Source: Terrabacter sp. Root181
GTDB taxonomy: Bacteria > Actinomycetota > Actinomycetes > Actinomycetales > Dermatophilaceae
DNA: 64,000 bases
Direction of reading: 5' to 3'
Assembly: GCF_001428505.1 (NCBI RefSeq)
Contig: NZ_LMHU01000005.1
Coordinates: 248,001 to 312,000, forward strand
The position numbers and the translations under genes were made by a program. Shown here one piece after another: positions 28,100-54,352 of the stretch. The notes beneath the pieces were generated by a model. It was given only the letters and a program-made list of their open reading frames with translations. It was not told the DNA's origin and did no database searches. How positions within the stretch are numbered: position 1 is the first letter of the stretch; the number at the start of each line of letters is the position of its first letter.

Positions 28100-28879
28100 T
28101 CAGCCGATCGTCGCGCCCATCTTGAGCAGGAAGAGGGTCTCGTCGCCGACGACACCGTCGTCCCCGACCCGGTTGGCCTGCTGGAAGCGCCGGACGACCT
28201 TCTTCGTCTCGGAGCCGAAGTCACCGTCGACCGTGAGGGTGCCGCCTGCGGCCCGCAGCGCGCGCTGGAGGGTCACGACGTCGGCGCCCGTCGAGCCCAC
28301 CTCGAGCGTGCCGTCGCCGAGCGACCGTGAGATGAGCAGCACCCACATGCCGGCGTCGATGCGCCCCGGCTTGGGCGCCGGCCCCTCGAGGCTCGCCTCG
28401 ACCTTCTTCACCGCCGCACGCGTCTGGGCGCCGTAGACGCCGTCGACGACGACCGGGCCGTAGTCGGCGTCGTTGAGGAAGCACTGGAGCGCCCGCACCG
28501 CCGGACCCTTCGCGCCGCGCTCGAGGACGGGGTATGCCGGCAGCGTCCGTTCGCACGCGCCCACGACGCTTCCCAGGTCGGTCGGCGTCGGGGCAGCCGT
28601 CGTCGGCGCGGCGCTCGTCGTCGCCGACGCGCTCGGGGTGGGCTTCGTCGGCGTCAGCGGGTCAGCGGTCACGGTCGGGATCGGGGCCGGGTCGCTGGGG
28701 ACCGGGTCGACCGCGCCCGTCGCCGTGGCGGTCACCGAGGGGGACTCGGCGGCCGACGTCGTCTGCGGCGTCGTGCCGCTGCAGGCCGTCAACGTGAGGC
28801 CGAGCACGACCAGCGCTGCAGCAGAGGCGAACCCGCCCCGTCGACCGTCACCGTTCCGAACGCCTGCCATGCCGTGCAC
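28100..28879 (-). CDS. Peptidoglycan-binding lipoprotein
   Basis: A 259-residue predicted lipoprotein. The N-terminal signal ends in the lipobox LGLTLTACSG with Cys at about residue 33. A Thr/Pro/Ala-rich linker (about 38-100) leads to two PG_binding_1 repeats: GPAVRALQCFLNDADYGPVV near 124-143 with VDGVYGAQTRAAVKK, and DVVTLQRALRAAGGTLTVDG near 198-217 with DFGSETKKVVRRFQQAN. It probably sits on the outer face of the membrane and contacts the wall. The start may be GTG 28879 or ATG 28870, a GGGGAG site lying 4 or 13 nt upstream. It is divergent from the S8 protease operon. Confidence 0.85.
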   Translation of the reverse strand: MHGMAGVRNGDGRRGGFASAAALVVLGLTLTACSGTTPQTTSAAESPSVTATATGAVDPVPSDPAPIPTVTADPLTPTKPTPSASATTSAAPTTAAPTPTDLGSVVGACERTLPAYPVLERGAKGPAVRALQCFLNDADYGPVVVDGVYGAQTRAAVKKVEASLEGPAPKPGRIDAGMWVLLISRSLGDGTLEVGSTGADVVTLQRALRAAGGTLTVDGDFGSETKKVVRRFQQANRVGDDGVVGDETLFLLKMGATIG

Positions 28880-29306
28880 CTGACTCCCCTGAGCTCACGT
28901 CGCGGTCCCTGACGTCCGCGCCGTCCGAGAAGTATGCGCCGACGGGAGCGAGCGCGCGAGCGCGACGCGCGGCGACGGCATACGCGGTCGGTGTCCGGTA
29001 CGGCACCTTTCGTCCCATGGGCAGGGAGAAGGGGCGCCGGTGCTGCGAGGCCCGGCGCCCCATGGACGGGACCGCCCCCTGGAAGTCCCGAACCCCTGTG
29101 CAGGTCACCGGGCCTGCTGCCCCTCCGCAGCGCCCCGTAGCAGCCCGGTGACCGTTCCCCCTGACCTCCCAGAGTCGACTCGTCCGGGCTTGATACGTCT
29201 CGGGAGGAAAAAGTTCGGGAGGCCCGATGTATCAGGAAAACGAGTACGGACACTCAGTCGGGTGTAAGGGTCTTTCCAACACCATCCGCCCCTCAGGAGG
29301 TTGTCG
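28880..29306. promoter_or_regulatory. 427-bp divergent regulatory region with two strong hairpins and an inverted repeat
   Basis: No gene is convincing here. The region holds a hairpin with GGGGCGCCGG (29031-29040) and CCGGCGCCCC (29052-29061), a second with GGTCACCGGG (29103-29112) and CCCGGTGACC (29144-29153) extended inside by CTGCT and AGCAG, and a third imperfect repeat with TGATAC (29191-29196), CGGG (29201-29204), CCCG (29223-29226) and GTATCA (29229-29234). TCGGGAGG occurs twice, at 29200 and 29215. A short frame from ATG 29227 (MYQENEYGHSVG) could encode a leader peptide but overlaps the protease start. The region should carry promoters for both flanking genes. Confidence 0.5.
29294..29300 (+). 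promoter_or_regulatory. Ribosome-binding site deciding the S8 protease start
   Basis: CAGGAGG lies 6 nt before ATG 29307 and only touches the in-frame TTG at 29301, so the ATG is the preferred start. Confidence 0.7.
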
Positions 29307-30923
29307 ATGTCAGAGTCGGGTCCCGACGCCCAACAGGGAGCGAACGGCGAGCACGCCACCGGCGGCTCCCGCCGCCCCGAACGCCCGCCCGTCCGCGCCC
29401 TCGACCCGGCCACGGCGATGCGCCTGACCGACGGTCGCCCGCCGCTTCCCGCGCTCTACCTCTCCGACCGCCTGCTCGTGCGCAGCGCGACGGGCGGGGG
29501 CCGGCCCCGTGGTCTCGACGACCTGCGGACGGCGCTCGGCAAGCTCGATCTCGACTTCCGGGTGACGCCGCGTCCCGACGGGGGCCCGCGCGACCTCGAC
29601 CAGCCCACCTGGGGCACGAGCATCACGCTCCAGCCGACCCGCTCGATCGACCCCGTCGACGCGTGGAGCGTGCTCCAGCACCTGCGCGAGGCCGGTGAGC
29701 CGATCGCCGAGCAGCTGAGCCTCGAGCACGTCCTGCGCCCGGCCGACGGCTATTGGGGCGGCGTGGGCGGCTACTGGGGCGGCGTCGGTGGCTACTGGGG
29801 TGGCGTGGGCGGCTACTGGGGTGGCGTCGGCGGGTACTGGGGTGGCGTGGGCGGCTACTGGGGTGGCGTCGGCGGGTACTGGGGTGGCGTCGGGGGGTCC
29901 GCGCTGCAGGAGTACTCCGTGCCCGGACGCGGCGGCCGTATGCCGGTGGCCCTGGCCCTGCCCGACCCGCGGCTGCGCGCCCGGCCCGTCGACCGCAACC
30001 CCGTCGTCGTCGTGCCCGACACGGCGATCGCGGCGCACCCGTGGTTCACGGACGGCGAGGGCCTCGTGCGGCTGGAGCTGAAGGACGGCCGGCTCGTGCC
30101 CGTCAAGACCCCCAAGCCCGTCGACCCGCCGATCTCGGTGCCGGCGCCGACCGAGCCGGTCGGCCTGCTCCAGGGTCACGCGACGTTCATCGCCGGGCTC
30201 GTCCGCCAGGGCTGCCCGGAGGCCACGATCCTCTCGATCCCCGTCATGGGCGACGACGGCGTCGTCGACGAGAGCGTCATGCTCGACGTCCTCCAGGCCC
30301 TGCTCGACCGGCACGTCCACGGGCAGGAGCACGACGACACGTCCGAGGTCGTCGACGTCCTGTCCCTCTCGCTCGGCTACTACGCGGAGGACCGCACCTA
30401 CACCTCGGGGCCCGTCGCGGACCTGCTCGACCGGTTCGCCGAGCGCGGCGTCGTCGTCGTGGCCGGTGTCGGCAACGACGGCACTGACTCGCCCTTCGTT
30501 CCCGCTGCCCTCGCGGCCGCGCTGCCGCAGCGGGTCACCGCGAAGTCGGTGCCACCGCTCGCGAGTGTCGGCGCGAGCAACCCCGACGGGGTCACCGTCG
30601 CCCTCTTCTCCAACAACCTCACCGTCGTCAGCGCCGTGCGGTCGGGCGTCTCGGTCGTCAGCACCCTGCCGCTCACCAACGGCATGGGGCAGCCGTCGTC
30701 CGAGGTCTCGACCGACGGCACGGTGCGCTGCACGGTCGACCCCGACGACTACACCGGAGGCTTCGGCGTCTGGAGCGGCACGTCGTTCTCCACCCCGGTC
30801 TTCGCGGCAGAGCTCGCGGCGGCCCTCATCGGCGAGGGCGGCCTGACCGACGTCGCGCCGTCCGCCATGCGCAAGCGCGCCATCCGCGCGCTGCGCACCT
30901 GCATCGGAAGGGCGCGACCATGA
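29307..30923 (+). CDS. Cytoplasmic S8 (subtilisin-like) serine peptidase with GYWGGVG repeats
   Basis: A 538-residue subtilase with no signal peptide or membrane span, so it should act inside the cell. After a variable N-terminal region come seven tandem GYWGGVG heptads (residues 148-196). The catalytic triad is readable as Asp238 in VVVVPDTAIAAHPWF, His291 in GHATFIAGLVRQG and Ser493 in WSGTSFSTPVFAAELAAAL. The usual GHGT is GHAT here. An EVVDVLSLSLGYY segment and GVGNDG near residue 390 also fit the fold. The stop overlaps the ATG of an ECF sigma gene. It heads a four-gene run with a sigma factor, a small protein and a TPR-like/CHAT protease, suggesting an intracellular regulated proteolysis system rather than a secreted enzyme. 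Confidence 0.87.
   Translation: MSESGPDAQQGANGEHATGGSRRPERPPVRALDPATAMRLTDGRPPLPALYLSDRLLVRSATGGGRPRGLDDLRTALGKLDLDFRVTPRPDGGPRDLDQPTWGTSITLQPTRSIDPVDAWSVLQHLREAGEPIAEQLSLEHVLRPADGYWGGVGGYWGGVGGYWGGVGGYWGGVGGYWGGVGGYWGGVGGYWGGVGGSALQEYSVPGRGGRMPVALALPDPRLRARPVDRNPVVVVPDTAIAAHPWFTDGEGLVRLELKDGRLVPVKTPKPVDPPISVPAPTEPVGLLQGHATFIAGLVRQGCPEATILSIPVMGDDGVVDESVMLDVLQALLDRHVHGQEHDDTSEVVDVLSLSLGYYAEDRTYTSGPVADLLDRFAERGVVVVAGVGNDGTDSPFVPAALAAALPQRVTAKSVPPLASVGASNPDGVTVALFSNNLTVVSAVRSGVSVVSTLPLTNGMGQPSSEVSTDGTVRCTVDPDDYTGGFGVWSGTSFSTPVFAAELAAALIGEGGLTDVAPSAMRKRAIRALRTCIGRARP
29748..29894 (+). repeat. Seven tandem 21-bp repeats encoding GYWGGVG
   Basis: Seven in-frame 21-bp units, GGCTACTGGGGTGGCGTGGG or close variants, differ only at synonymous third positions and mostly alternate GTG and GTC at the valine. 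Near identity at DNA level means copy number could change by slippage or recombination. The Trp/Tyr/Gly composition suggests an aggregating or stacking element. Confidence 0.95.
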
Positions 30924-31501
30924 CCCCGACCCCCACCGCTCCCGACGGCCTCGGGACGCTCGCGGGCAAGGCGTTCGCGGCCTACCGCGCGGGCGAGCGC
31001 GAGCGGCTCTCCGAGCTCGTCGACCTCGTGACCCCGGTGCTCTGGAACGCCGCGCGCTCCCAGGGTGGTGCACCGGCGACGTGCGAGGACGCCATCCAGA
31101 CGGCGTTCCTCCAGCTCGTCGACCGGGCCGACTCGATCAACGAGCCGGCGGCGGTGCTCGGCTGGCTCGTCGTCGTCGTCAAGCGCGAGGTCTGGCGCCT
31201 GGCCCGCGGGGCCCGGCGCGAGTTCGGGGTCGAGGAGGTGCCGGAGGCCCCGGCACAGCAGCTCGACCCCGAGGCGCAGTCGATCCTCTCCGAGCGTCAG
31301 CGCGTGCTGTGGAAGCACGTCTCGACCCTGTCCCCGCGGTGCCAGGAGCTGCTCCGGGTCATCGCGTTCGCCGACCGCCCCGACTACGCCGCCATCGCGG
31401 AGTCCCTGGGGATGCCCGTCGGCAGCATCGGCCCGACCCGCGGCCGCTGCCTCCAGAAGCTGAGGACCACCCTCGGCACCGACCCCGGATGGGCGGTCTG
31501 A
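30920..31501 (+). CDS. ECF-type RNA polymerase sigma factor
   Basis: A 193-residue sigma-70 family protein with regions 2 and 4 only. Region 2 covers about residues 35-95 (CEDAIQTAFLQLVDRADSIN, then GWLVVVVKREVWRLAR) and region 4 about 125-180 (RCQELLRVIAFADRPDYAAI, then GMPVGSIGPTRGRCLQKLR), the latter a clear helix-turn-helix. It starts with ATG overlapping the protease stop and ends one base before the next gene. There is no transmembrane anti-sigma gene; the following 167-residue protein may take that role. It may transcribe its own operon, but I could not identify a promoter pair. Confidence 0.88.
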   Translation: MTPTPTAPDGLGTLAGKAFAAYRAGERERLSELVDLVTPVLWNAARSQGGAPATCEDAIQTAFLQLVDRADSINEPAAVLGWLVVVVKREVWRLARGARREFGVEEVPEAPAQQLDPEAQSILSERQRVLWKHVSTLSPRCQELLRVIAFADRPDYAAIAESLGMPVGSIGPTRGRCLQKLRTTLGTDPGWAV

Positions 31502-31502
31502 C

Positions 31503-32006
31503 ATGACATCTCACACTGACGCCATCGATGCCCGCGACATCGCCAACCTCAGCCACGTGCGCGACCTCTTCGGCCACGCCGACCCGGTGCCGAGCGACCT
31601 CGCCGAGCGGGTCAAGTTCGCGATCACCGTGCACGCGCTGCACGCCGAGGTCGCCGAGCTCATGGACTCGGCCCTGCTGACGACGCGCGGCGCGGAGGCC
31701 AAGGTCGAGCCGACGCCCACCGACTCGGTGACGTTCACGGCCGCCTCGGTGAGCCTCATGGTCTCGGCCGGGCCCGCGGACTCCGACGACGACGACGCGG
31801 ACGACCGTGTGCGCGTCGACGGCTGGGTCACGGCGCCCGGCGCACAGATCGAGGCGGTGACGACCGAGGGCAGCTCGACGGTCATTTCGGATGCGAACGG
31901 GCGCTTTGTTCTGGATGATCTACCCCATGGGCCGGTGCACTTCGTCGTCACCGACCCGGGCAACGAGGACATGCGACCGGTCATCACCCCCACGATCCAG
32001 ATCTGA
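31503..32006 (+). CDS. Small protein with carboxypeptidase-regulatory-like domain, candidate sigma partner
   Basis: A 167-residue soluble protein. The first half has helices, DIANLSHVRDLFGHADPVPS and LAERVKFAITVHALHAEVAE, then a Thr/Ser-rich and acidic linker with SDDDDADDR near residue 97-105. The C-terminal 65 residues read VRVDGWVTAPGAQIEAVTTE and DANGRFVLDDLPHGPVHFVV, the beta-sandwich pattern of carboxypeptidase regulatory-like domains. It is sandwiched between the sigma factor (one base away) and the TPR-like/CHAT gene. I suggest it binds the sigma factor or is a protease substrate; neither can be seen directly. Codons near 31884-31930 are unusually AT-rich. Confidence 0.72.
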   Translation: MTSHTDAIDARDIANLSHVRDLFGHADPVPSDLAERVKFAITVHALHAEVAELMDSALLTTRGAEAKVEPTPTDSVTFTAASVSLMVSAGPADSDDDDADDRVRVDGWVTAPGAQIEAVTTEGSSTVISDANGRFVLDDLPHGPVHFVVTDPGNEDMRPVITPTIQI

Positions 32007-32114
32007 CGATCCCGACCTGACGTGGTGACCGGCCCCTGAGCGAGAGGCCGGGCGGGAGCCATCGATCTGCTCGAGAGTGCACGCACCCTGCGCGAGCAGG
32101 GTGCCGCGGACAAC

Positions 32115-34688
32115 ATGGCCGGGCGGCCGGTCGATGCGGCGCGCTCGCTGACGGCGGCCCTCGACGAGATCGACCGGGCCGCCGGGTCGGCTCCCTCGCG
32201 GGATCGCCTCGAGCTGCGGTGCAAGACCCTCATCACGCTCGCCCTGACCGAGTTCATGCTCTCCGGCGTGGAGCCCGCCCTGGCCCGGCTCGTGGAGGCC
32301 GAGGCGCTCGTCGACGACCTCGGCGACGAGGCGCTCCGGGCTCGGCTCGACTACCAGCGCGCCAACATCCACGGCCGCGTCGGTGACCTCGCCTCGGCGT
32401 GGGACGGGCTCGAGGGGGCGGTCCGCCGCCTCGACGCCTTCACCGAGAGCGAGCAGTGCTCGGTGCACCTCAGCCGCGGGATGCTCGCCTTCGAGCTGCT
32501 GCGACCGCAGGAGGCCCTCGAGTCCTTCGCCGAGGCGGCGCGCCTCGCGCACGACCTCGGCGGGGCGCCCCAGGAGTTCATGGCGCGGCACAACGAAGGG
32601 TATGCCGCATACCTCCTCGGTGACATCCCGCGCTCCCTCGCCGGCATGGCTCGGGCCGAGGAGCTCGAGTCCGACGTCTTCACCGGCCCGGCTCGTCTCG
32701 ACCGCGCCCAGGTCCTGCTCGAGGCGGGGCTCGTCAAGGAGGCCGTCGAGGCCCTGCACGGGGGCCTCGAGGCCCTCGAGGGCGAGGGCCACGACCAGAT
32801 GCGGGCCGAGTTCGAGCTCGCCCTGGCGCGCGCCCACCGACTGCTCGGGCACCTCGACCTCGCGGCGTCGGCAGCGGCGTCGGCGCGGGAGACCTACTCC
32901 CGCATCGGGGCGACCGCCTGGGCGGCCAAGGCGATGCTCGTCGGGCTGCTCGTCGACCTCGACCGGCAGCGGCGCACCCGTCGCGGTCGGGAGCGGGACG
33001 GTGGGCAGCGTGCTGAGGCCACGCATCCCGCCGCCGACCTCGTCCGGCAGGTGGTCGGTGTCGGGGACGCCACCGTGGCGCTCGCGGTGGCGGCGACCGC
33101 CGACGAGCTGACCGACACGGCGACCGAGCTGGGCGACTCAGAGCTCGCCGACAGCGCGCGCGTCGTCGCAGCGCAGGCGCTGCTGCTCGCCGGTGACCCG
33201 GGCGGGGCCAACACGAGGCTGCTCAGCCTCGAGCGGGTCTCCACCGGCTCGCTCTCCGACGAGCTCGACGCGGCAGTCGTCACCGCCATGACGCTCGTCG
33301 CCACCGGCGACCTGGCGTCGGCCCGACGCATCCTCGTGCGGGCCTCGCGCCGCCTCGCGGCCGGCCAGGAGGGCAGCGCGAGCCTCGACCTGCGCACCGC
33401 CCGTGCGGTCCACGGCGCCCGGCTCTCCGAGCTCGACCTCGACCTCGCCGTGCCGCGGGGCAGCGCCTCGGTGCTCGAGGCCCTGGAGCGGTGGCGCAGC
33501 GCGACCGACCGTCTGCCCTCGCTCGGCCGGCCCGACGACGAGCAGCTCGCCCAGCTCACCGAGCAGCTGCGGGCCGTCCGCGGCCACCTGCGCGGCGAGG
33601 GCGACCCGGCGCAGGTGCGGGAGCTGCACGACCACGCCTCGCGCCTCGAGCGGCAGATCCGCGACCGCGACTGGGCCCTGAGCCGCAGCGGCGGGGCCTC
33701 CCGTGCCGTGCCCGTCCGGGTCCGCGAAGCCCGCGAGCACCTCGGCCGGGTCGATCGCGACCTCGTGTGGTTCTTCCGGCACCGCGGCCGCATCGGCGCC
33801 GTGGGAGTCGTCGGCGGACGGGCGACGATGCGCGACCTCATGCCGGCCGACCGGGCCGCGGAGCTCGCCCAGCGCATACGCGTCGACCTGCGGGCCGCGG
33901 CGACCCACCACCTCGGCCCGCTCGCCGGCGCCGTCTGGTCCTCGCTGCGAGCCAGCGCGACCGAGCTCGACGACGGGCTGCTGCGGCCGTGGCGCACGGG
34001 CCGGGGCCTCGTCGTCGTGACGTGCCCCGAGCTGTCCGCGCTGCCGTGGGCCCTCCTGCCCTCGATGGCGGGACGGCCCTTCACGGTCGCGCTCTCGCTG
34101 ACGTCGTTCACCCGCCGGGCATCCGTCCGTGACGAGGCTTCCCGCCCTGCGAGCGTCCACGTCAGCGTCGGCCCGTCGGTGCCCCGCGCGTCGAGCGAGG
34201 CGCGCACCATCGTCAGCACCTGGGGGGAGCGTGCCCGCCTCGCGGAGCCGTCCCGACGGGCCGAGCTCGTCGGGGCACTCGCCCGACCCGGTGTCGTCCA
34301 CGTCGCCGCGCACGGCACGCACCAGGTGGAGTCACCCCTGTTCTCCTCGCTCGTGCTCCACGACGGACCCGTCTTCGCGCACGAGCTCCAGCCCACGGGT
34401 GTGGGCGCCGACCACGTCGTGCTCTCGGCCTGCGAGGTCGGGCTCACGACGCCCAGGCCGGGGCACGAGTCCCTCGGCCTCGCGCTGTCCCTGCTCTCGC
34501 TCGGTGCCCGGTCGGTCGTCGCGGCCGTGTCGCCCGTGCCCGACGACGTCGCCGCGACGACCATGACGCGTCACCACGAGCTGCTCGCCTCCGGGCTCCC
34601 CAGCGACGAGGCGCTGGCGCGCGCGGTCGCCGAGACGGACGACGTCGCCGCCGCCTTCCTCAACCTCGGCGGCCAGCACCACCCCTGA
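32115..34688 (+). CDS. TPR-like helical / CHAT domain (caspase-like) protease
   Basis: At least 857 residues. About residues 1-470 are helical TPR-like repeats rich in Ala/Leu/Glu, for example ARLDRAQVLLEAGLVKEAVE and ELALARAHRLLGHLDLAASA. The C-terminal CHAT domain (about 560-857) has GLVVVTCPELSALPWALLP, then the caspase-type dyad: His733 in VHVAAHGTHQ and Cys773 in VVLSACEVGLTTPRPGHES, followed by LGLALSLLSLGARSVVAA. The helical frame continues upstream of ATG 32115 (LLESARTLREQGAADN) to a stop at 32037 with no ATG, GTG or TTG; CTG 32067 with GGGAG 8 nt upstream is the probable true start. It ends the S8/sigma operon and should be the effector or the sensor protease. Confidence 0.88.
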   Translation: MAGRPVDAARSLTAALDEIDRAAGSAPSRDRLELRCKTLITLALTEFMLSGVEPALARLVEAEALVDDLGDEALRARLDYQRANIHGRVGDLASAWDGLEGAVRRLDAFTESEQCSVHLSRGMLAFELLRPQEALESFAEAARLAHDLGGAPQEFMARHNEGYAAYLLGDIPRSLAGMARAEELESDVFTGPARLDRAQVLLEAGLVKEAVEALHGGLEALEGEGHDQMRAEFELALARAHRLLGHLDLAASAAASARETYSRIGATAWAAKAMLVGLLVDLDRQRRTRRGRERDGGQRAEATHPAADLVRQVVGVGDATVALAVAATADELTDTATELGDSELADSARVVAAQALLLAGDPGGANTRLLSLERVSTGSLSDELDAAVVTAMTLVATGDLASARRILVRASRRLAAGQEGSASLDLRTARAVHGARLSELDLDLAVPRGSASVLEALERWRSATDRLPSLGRPDDEQLAQLTEQLRAVRGHLRGEGDPAQVRELHDHASRLERQIRDRDWALSRSGGASRAVPVRVREAREHLGRVDRDLVWFFRHRGRIGAVGVVGGRATMRDLMPADRAAELAQRIRVDLRAAATHHLGPLAGAVWSSLRASATELDDGLLRPWRTGRGLVVVTCPELSALPWALLPSMAGRPFTVALSLTSFTRRASVRDEASRPASVHVSVGPSVPRASSEARTIVSTWGERARLAEPSRRAELVGALARPGVVHVAAHGTHQVESPLFSSLVLHDGPVFAHELQPTGVGADHVVLSACEVGLTTPRPGHESLGLALSLLSLGARSVVAAVSPVPDDVAATTMTRHHELLASGLPSDEALARAVAETDDVAAAFLNLGGQHHP

Positions 34689-34720: not shown

Positions 34721-34819
34721 GGACTCGGATCCTGCTCCCGAAAACGGAGCAGCTTCCGATAGGGAGGCTCCCGCACCGATCCCGCGGGGACTCGGATCCT
34801 GCTCCCGAAAACGGAGCAG
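34721..34819. repeat. Duplicated 32-bp hairpin element between convergent genes
   Basis: An identical 32-mer starting GGACTCGGATCCTGCTCCCG lies at 34721-34752 and 34788-34819. Its second half folds as CTGCTCC-cgaaaac-GGAGCAG (or with an AAAA tetraloop and one bulged C). The spacer has GGGAGGCTCCC, itself a palindrome. The position between the CHAT gene and the convergent monooxygenase suggests tandem terminators, but exact duplication also suggests a small interspersed repeat. Confidence 0.8.
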
Positions 34820-54199: not shown

Positions 54200-54352
54200 G
54201 GGGGGTCCTTGATGGTCGGCAGGGCCCCGCGGGTGACGTCGGACGGTCGTCGACAGGTCAGCGGCGGGCGGGCTCGAGGCATCAGGAGATCCACACGGGA
54301 AGGAAGATACGGGCCGCCAGCGGCGCCCGTCCACCTCATTTCGACCCCCTTT

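Follow-up and report, generated by a model that had tools for sequence, protein, structure and literature searches.

What is an ECF sigma factor doing in an operon that also encodes two proteases of different families, and what is the role of the small protein encoded directly after it? This arrangement is found in the actinobacterium Terrabacter sp. Root181, in a stretch of 64,000 nucleotides (referred to here as the window) from a genome of 4.94 Mb. The operon consists of an S8 subtilase, the ECF sigma factor, a 167-residue protein that we call BETA, and a protease with a TPR-like region and a CHAT domain (TPR-CHAT), and the catalytic residues of both proteases are intact. Our answer is a tentative one: the four genes may form a self-amplifying sigma circuit of the ECF54 type with a proteolytic release arm, in which a tandem repeat array within the subtilase would be a species-specific site that gates the zymogen.

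Organisation of the operon

The features of the locus are collected in Table 1. The layout given by a first-pass annotation of this DNA, in which the sigma ATG at 30920 overlaps the end of the subtilase gene by 4 nt and the sigma gene ends at 31501 just before BETA at 31503, is borne out, as are the catalytic residues D238/H291/S493 of the subtilase and H733/C773 of the CHAT domain, which can be read in the translations. The three subtilase residues are invariant across 43 S8 sequences. The same annotation noted that neither protease has a signal peptide, and judged by eye none is seen.

Table 1. Positions of predicted features in the window.
Feature	Position	Strand	Evidence
Lipoprotein-like protein (by eye) with two PG_binding_1 domains, 3' of the divergent RNA, possible regulon member	28100..28879	-	Pfam, inspection
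Predicted conserved structured RNA (hairpins), 3' of the reverse promoter box	29021..29172	-	Covariation, folding
Reverse ECF-type promoter box, GTATCA-N16-CTC	29172..29196	-	Upstream-region motif comparison
Forward ECF-type promoter box of the operon, GTATCA-N18-CTC	29229..29255	+	Upstream-region motif comparison
S8 subtilase, predicted pro-enzyme, 538 aa	29307..30923	+	Pfam, 43-sequence alignment, AlphaFold, Foldseek
S8 prodomain-like region, residues 28-145	29388..29741	+	Confident strand-helix-strand-strand-helix-strand model, Foldseek
Tandem array, 7.0 copies of a 21-nt unit encoding GYWGGVG	29747..29893	+	TRF; pLDDT below 50 at residues 148-214
S8 catalytic domain	29994..30830	+	Pfam, residues 230-508
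ECF sigma factor, ECF54-like	30920..31501	+	Pfam, TIGR02937
BETA, 167 aa, two N-terminal helices and a beta domain	31503..32006	+	Pfam below cut-off, AlphaFold
TPR-CHAT protease, start codon uncertain (ATC 32061, CTG 32067 or first ATG 32115)	32061..34688	+	Pfam, relatives
CHAT domain, His733/Cys773	33951..34628	+	Pfam

Matches above the Pfam cut-off are found for Peptidase_S8 (E 1e-9), Sigma70_r2 (E 3e-7) and CHAT (E 1e-28); matches of CarboxypepD_reg to BETA (27.7 bits, cut-off 32.3) and of TPR_2 (15.1 bits, cut-off 27) fall below it. Pfam matched only region 2 of the sigma factor, and residues 30-184 match TIGR02937 with 64.9 bits (cut-off 42.9). Terracoccus sp. 273MFTsu3.1 has a sigma factor of the same sequence over 193 residues. 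The subtilase starts with the ATG at 29307, and a TTG is also present at 29301.

The start of TPR-CHAT, originally placed at the ATG at 32115, needs revision. The frame is open from 32040 and contains no ATG, GTG or TTG before 32115, and in a close relative (L115) this ATG is replaced by CTG; the gene therefore probably begins further upstream, at a non-canonical codon (Table 1). An inverted repeat, CCGGCC...GGCCGG, follows BETA at 32029-32051, ahead of the putative ribosome-binding site of CHAT; near relatives have a similar arrangement, and translational control is a possible function.

The gene upstream of the operon in the window and in six near relatives reads by eye as a prephenate dehydratase, and by the same inspection the surroundings appear to be a housekeeping place, not a defence island.

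Conservation of the gene set

Recurrence in other genomes was suggested on the first pass as the check on this module, and the module does recur. BETA is present in 47 of 99 family genomes and 85 of 393 class genomes. We fetched 20 loci from the 47 positive family genomes, and the order S8-sigma-BETA-CHAT and the strand are the same in all of them, so the gene set is not a chance arrangement. A search with a sigma alignment gave 570 loci, the best 80 of which are the named sigma loci used here, some of them truncated at contig ends. Among these best 80 of 570, BETA adjoins the sigma gene in 79, and CHAT is found in 76, S8 in 67 and all four genes in 65; the locus without BETA (L175) ends at its contig end. 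The order sigma-BETA-S8-CHAT occurs in three Pseudonocardiales MAGs (L138, L139, L168) and in Micromonospora (L186). A single weak sigma relative (32%) was found among viral contigs, and one record of a plasmid collection has a BETA match, also at 32%.

A more distant set comprises 40 class loci fetched from the 85 BETA-positive class genomes. The sigma factor adjoins BETA in 39 of them, and the S8 match is strong in 18 (E <1e-90), weak in 11 and absent in 11. Nine of the 40 keep the sigma-BETA pair with neither S8 nor CHAT found, L086 and L098 being incomplete loci. Six loci with complete 8-kb flanks are without S8 and L149 is without CHAT, and thus neither protease is indispensable. With a near-constant sigma-BETA pairing beside variable S8 and CHAT genes, sigma-BETA is therefore the core of the set and the proteases are its movable part. 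The constant pairing fits a role for BETA as the partner of the sigma factor. The AlphaFold model of BETA (mean pLDDT 85.4), which comprises two helices and a beta domain, has no PDB match at E 0.001, and no known anti-sigma domain is found in the protein with Pfam and NCBIfam at E 0.1.

The first-pass annotation could not say whether this four-gene combination had been described, and it has. According to the accessible part of a 2022 review (PMC8999054), members of the group ECF54 have conserved carboxypeptidase, subtilase and CHAT neighbours in actinobacteria, and control by proteolysis without an anti-sigma factor was proposed for them. The locus in the window resembles these: an ECF-type sigma gene lies beside subtilase, CHAT and carboxypeptidase-like genes, the last of these being assigned from a match below cut-off. 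We treat the gene set as already known and the locus as ECF54-like. Two further papers are retrieved for ECF54, and their titles concern snails and E. coli plasmids. A repeat array, promoter boxes, a divergent RNA and a trypsin-like protease, all discussed below, go unmentioned in that part of the review.

The published ECF54 proposal (PMC8999054, accessible part) leads to a different account of the operon, in which the proteases keep the system off by degrading the sigma factor itself, no anti-sigma factor exists and BETA serves as an adaptor. That the sigma factor and BETA accompany both proteases in 65 of the best 80 of 570 loci agrees with such an account. The nine distant loci that have the sigma-BETA pair and neither protease found argue against it, since in these BETA goes with the sigma factor and not with the proteases. 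We consider this account unlikely, though it is the most credible of the alternatives to BETA as a partner that is removed by proteolysis.

The subtilase as a predicted pro-enzyme

The AlphaFold model of the subtilase, built with 43 sequences, has a mean pLDDT of 76.9 and consists of a prodomain-like fold (residues 28-145), a disordered stretch that includes the array (148-214) and the catalytic domain. The long Foldseek alignments (480-504 columns) are mostly to unprocessed pro-subtilisins (4jp8, 3whi and 2z2z), together with PCSK9. These superpositions are loose, with a query TM of about 0.4 and an rmsd of about 9-13 Å in the long alignments, and such values may be expected because of the long disordered stretch. 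As the disordered array lies between the prodomain-like fold and the catalytic domain and the matches are to pro-subtilisins, the array would be located at the pro-subtilisin maturation site. The predicted model contains both a prodomain and a catalytic triad, and the protein looks like a pro-subtilisin in which a tandem array forms the junction of prodomain and catalytic domain. It shares the order of prodomain and catalytic domain with subtilisin E, Tk-subtilisin and PCSK9, unprocessed forms being among its best structural matches; unlike these it has a species-specific tandem array at the junction, and no signal peptide is seen by eye.

A species-specific tandem array

In the window TRF finds the unit GYWGGVG seven times between the prodomain and the catalytic domain. 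We compared 68 S8 proteins, namely those of 67 named loci (from the best 80 of 570) and that of the window. The repeat exceeds 100 shuffles of each sequence in 65 of the 68, and in L136 the detected repeat is located elsewhere in the frame. A set of 64 arrays, which leaves out L127 and L148 (cut at contig ends), L144 (imperfect) and L136, contains 46 distinct motifs, including GYWGGVG, PYWDPV, YGEGVG, PYLAGV, GHPITG, PYYSAH and PFTSGG. The period is 6 in 39 arrays and 7 in 15, and unit length ranges from 5 to 11 residues across proteins. In the distant class loci an array is present in 14 of the 18 strong S8 matches (for example NPFTRT, PFTRGA and PYDSSH), the other four being without a clear array, and in none of the 11 weak ones. 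The genome of the window has 11 S8 matches and only the subtilase of this locus carries an array (score 43, at most 5 in the other ten, one of which is below the Pfam cut-off and four of which are frames truncated at the locus end).

For substitution counts the arrays were defined on DNA, as bounds set by amino-acid identity bias pN downward; here L127 and L148 were left out and L136 was kept. An array was obtained in 63 of 66 S8 genes, with none in L144, L147 and L164. Over the units of these 63 genes mean pS is 0.412 and mean pN 0.038, and pN is exactly 0 in 44 of them; at saturation a pS of about 0.57 is expected. A pS of 0.41 beside a pN of 0.04 means that the units look like old copies kept alike at the protein level. 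At the level of sequence the array unit is nearly identical within a protein and different from species to species.

One explanation of such arrays is that they are mere flexible linkers of drifting copy number, kept uniform by the turnover of repeats in GC-rich DNA and not by selection. Copy number does vary among near relatives (by eye, 7 in the window and 5, 4, 4, 5 and 5 in L111-L115), and higher-order periods occur in the tandem-repeat output. Against this, the units differ at synonymous sites (pS 0.41, with about 0.57 expected at saturation) and hardly elsewhere, and we regard a mere linker as improbable.

A proline or glycine precedes a bulky residue in 62 of the 64 arrays, compared with a mean of 50.7 and a maximum of 60 in 2000 shuffles. 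Subtilisins favour a proline or glycine preceding a bulky residue. In partial Mantel tests over 56 loci the motif is correlated with the S8 catalytic domain (0.17), the BETA N-terminus (0.22) and the TPR region (0.16), with P 0.001 each, and shows no link to the prodomain, the sigma factor, the BETA C-terminus, the middle part of CHAT or the CHAT domain. These partial correlations are weak, implicate three partners together and may come from phylogeny. That a peptide so nearly constant within each protein varies between species, and does so where the protease presumably matures, suggests that it has co-evolved with some partner, and the question is which one.

A model in which the motif is a tag shared with other proteins of the same genome was rejected for the window, as all seven matches of GYWGG lie inside the array (reversed control 3+1). 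Sharing of the motif within loci is not significant, either for 6-mers (1 of 64 loci; control mean 0.30, maximum 2) or for 5-mers (11 of 64; control mean 6.66, maximum 14). In Knoellia sinensis (L152) the S8 array motif GWGDGI occurs four times in a protease encoded divergently from the operon, where permuted pairs give at most two.

The array could also be a multi-copy peptide precursor, whose freed units would be species-specific signals read by the TPR domain. Fungal alpha-factor and the RRNPP peptides are analogues for this kind of reading. It would agree with units that are near-identical within a protein, with 46 motifs in 64 arrays and with the confinement of the motif in its own genome to the array (the seven matches of seven above). 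The position of the array at the prodomain junction and the lack of a signal peptide, as judged by eye, speak against a precursor, and we give this explanation a small probability. An elaborated form, which we hold to be as improbable, makes the array a self-identity code: proteolysis would free a species-specific peptide, the TPR region of the CHAT protein would read it, the sigma factor would be freed, the circuit amplified and a structured RNA transcribed. If this were true, it would be an intracellular bacterial peptide signal encoded inside a cytoplasmic zymogen, with motif and receptor diversifying together.

Paired promoter boxes

Regions upstream of the operon contain GTATC[A/T] in 71 of 75 cases and its reverse complement in 56 of 75, with none in 76 control segments of CHAT-coding sequence. 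A CTC follows at a spacer of 16 in 55 of 72 forward boxes and 45 of 56 reverse boxes. The combined pattern GTATCW-N16-18-CTC is present in the forward direction in 65, in reverse in 49 and in both directions in 44 of the 75 upstream regions (background, 11 and 3 of 2632 tiles). The forward box is found in all 18 distant class loci with a strong S8 match and in three others of the 40. The 64-kb window contains three matches to the pattern, where 0.52 are expected, and two of these are the boxes of the operon. The third match to this loose pattern is at 54286-54310 on the minus strand.

The upstream TGATAC...GTATCA was considered as an operator and this was dropped, both halves carrying CTC at a fixed distance. 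We infer that the boxes are two divergent promoters read by the operon's own sigma factor.

Divergent products: a putative structured RNA and a trypsin-like protease

Downstream of the reverse box, the Terrabacter-Humibacillus-Intrasporangium group has a stretch of about 150 nt in which hairpins are conserved. An alignment of 12 sequences shows changes on both sides in 7 of 27 pairs, which only 1 of 500 shuffles reaches, and covariation is 0.198 compared with 0.121 in shuffled alignments (0 of 500 reach it) and at most 0.089 in slid registers. The variety of pair types is unremarkable, as 91 of 500 shuffles reach the same number. The z-score of the fold is -3.7, and six sequences folded singly give z-scores from -1.95 to -6.18.

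The model of this RNA has one match in its own genome and matches in 11 of 99 family genomes, nine of which lie within about 3 kb of a BETA match on the same contig; the exceptions are a match on another contig (G064) and a weak match in a genome without a BETA match (G063). Across 56 sources at E <0.01 it matches only the window, itself one of the building sequences, L053 and L124. With few matches outside the building set, the RNA therefore seems confined to one clade. No Rfam family matches at its gathering score, the best being ftsZ-DE (17.6 bits against 72.2, E 0.63). In the clade of the window the divergent product would thus be a covarying hairpin RNA, a putative transcript.

Other relatives encode a trypsin-like protein in the divergent position. 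These include Knoellia (L150, L152, L165, L167), Janibacter (L171), Nocardioides (L189), Serinicoccus (L162) and Cellulomonas (L159, L176, L177, L180, L182, L184). The Pfam trypsin matches of these proteins are below cut-off, and the L152 domain has no such match at E 0.01. Ten strong relatives (E <1e-120) are found in 297 order genomes, and the same search gives none in the genome of the window. No S8 gene is found in Cellulomonas, and there the trypsin-like protein carries PFTE repeats (L159, L177, L180, L182); PFTE or PFTQ repeats are present in the trypsin-like protein of further genomes. Matches in L146, L151 and L185 were discarded as false, as they came from an unrelated L185 protein among the seed sequences. 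By eye, the trypsin-like divergent proteins of L130, L150, L152, L165, L167, L171, L177, L180, L182 and L189 share a motif resembling [FY]W[AGS]GY.[AT]A at the C-terminus, and several of them contain degenerate repeats rich in Cys.

Candidate regulon

In the genome of the window a strict promoter pattern, which misses the window's own two boxes, gives 4 matches compared with 2 in the reversed control, and no clear regulon beyond the locus emerges from these counts. In 12 other genomes the same pattern gives 41 matches against 11 reversed; judged by coordinates, some 15 of these 41 belong to the locus, which leaves 26. The box precedes families common to two genomes of one Knoellia/Janibacter group (g18), among them a secreted protein with a VWA-like motif (by eye, with no Pfam match), a secreted AMIN-like protein, a protein of 165-173 residues and one of 62 residues. 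Single cases downstream of a box include another CHAT protein, a protein with four PG_binding_1 domains, an L,D-transpeptidase and a sigma paralogue (by eye). These single cases may be due to chance, and some of the boxes fall within other long frames.

The 165-173-residue proteins of L292 and L297, which adjoin the promoter pattern, contain the motif ALNPQP[LI]PP; the one that was scanned has no Pfam match, and the string ALNPQPLPP was not found in the searched literature. In the genome of the window a promoter-like box at C1:1716496-1716523 (L206), one of the four matches to the strict pattern, precedes a hairpin that is conserved in a second genome, G039 (L263), with one compensatory change (by eye), and a bioB-like gene (by eye) lies farther 3' in L206. 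This hairpin is perhaps a second structured RNA.

Proposed mechanism

In the circuit that we tentatively favour, BETA would hold the sigma factor inactive. A stimulus would be sensed by TPR-CHAT, or by the subtilase, and lead to cleavage of BETA. The freed sigma factor would then increase transcription of its own operon and of the divergent product, be it RNA or trypsin-like protease, and its targets in some genera would include secreted proteins. The array would be a multi-copy cleavage or docking site for the subtilase itself or for TPR-CHAT, and would set the release of the zymogen; with a partner that co-varies, the motif could drift between species while the copies within one protein have to match. 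Several findings weigh against this circuit: BETA has neither a recognisable anti-sigma domain nor a PDB match, either protease can be missing, four of the 18 strong distant S8 matches are without a clear array, the correlations of the motif are weak, the superpositions are loose and the genome of the window gives no clear regulon.

A proteolytic release arm has a parallel in type III-E Craspase, where Csx29 cleaves Csx30, an inhibitor of a sigma factor (PMC10028731, accessible part), and by analogy this supports the arm proposed here. Both systems (Csx29-Csx30-CASP sigma in Craspase) bring together a TPR-CHAT protein, a small third protein and an ECF-type sigma factor. Unlike the Craspase protein, BETA has 167 residues with a CarboxypepD_reg-like end, and the subtilase with its array is additional here. 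No cas-like gene was noticed by eye in the frames overlapping 26-38.5 kb of the window. Loci that combine an EACC2-caspase, an ECF sigma factor and a TPR protein (DUF1822) are similar in placing a caspase-family protease by an ECF sigma factor and a TPR protein; their domains are different, and S8 and BETA are unmentioned in the part of PMC8195603 that describes them. The accessible parts of PMC8195603 and PMC7159879 concern other conflict systems, and those of PMC13118837 and PMC8103513 contain nothing on such a system.

The first-pass annotation read the four genes as a regulated module that triggers a stress, defence or death response. The regulated module is supported by the conserved sigma, small beta protein, subtilase and TPR-CHAT set with its steady sigma-BETA pairing; the housekeeping nature of the neighbour gene weighs against the defence or death part. 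A CRISPR-free Craspase-like defence or death system is very unlikely: the likeness of TPR-CHAT, sigma factor and small third protein to type III-E (PMC10028731, PMC9729208, accessible parts) and weak PADLOC matches to IetS (S8) and BovA (CHAT) are outweighed by a score of 23.9 bits with the curated Csx29 model (cut-off 300), by the housekeeping neighbour and by a promoter pattern that in other genera precedes peptidoglycan-binding, L,D-transpeptidase and secreted proteins.

For the favoured circuit, the gain over earlier work can be stated in terms of ECF54, which in the accessible part of its description consists of a list of neighbours and the proteolysis proposal; to this are now added a promoter box that can be tested, the sigma-BETA core, a set of candidate targets and an unusual switch element. 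Neither array nor RNA is described in the literature searched by title and start of abstract, which lies outside most subscription journals. Relative to that literature and the accessible parts of the papers cited, the array, the paired boxes, the divergent RNA or trypsin-like protease and the box before secreted proteins are new. Soil bacteria now allow a direct test of whether TPR-CHAT proteases control sigma factors in settings other than CRISPR.

Other loci and repeats

A palindromic sequence, CTGCTCCCGAAAACGGAGCAG, is present in two copies 3' of CHAT, at 34732-34752 and 34799-34819 of the window. The genome contains seven CHAT-domain genes, and among the six other loci scanned relatives of the set are found at L012 only. 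This locus (C1:150000-167000) has a second sigma-BETA pair, the sigma factor being 40% identical, which adjoins a WXG100 gene and type VII-like genes (by eye); two further S8 genes are present as well, together with a CHAT gene in the reverse orientation.
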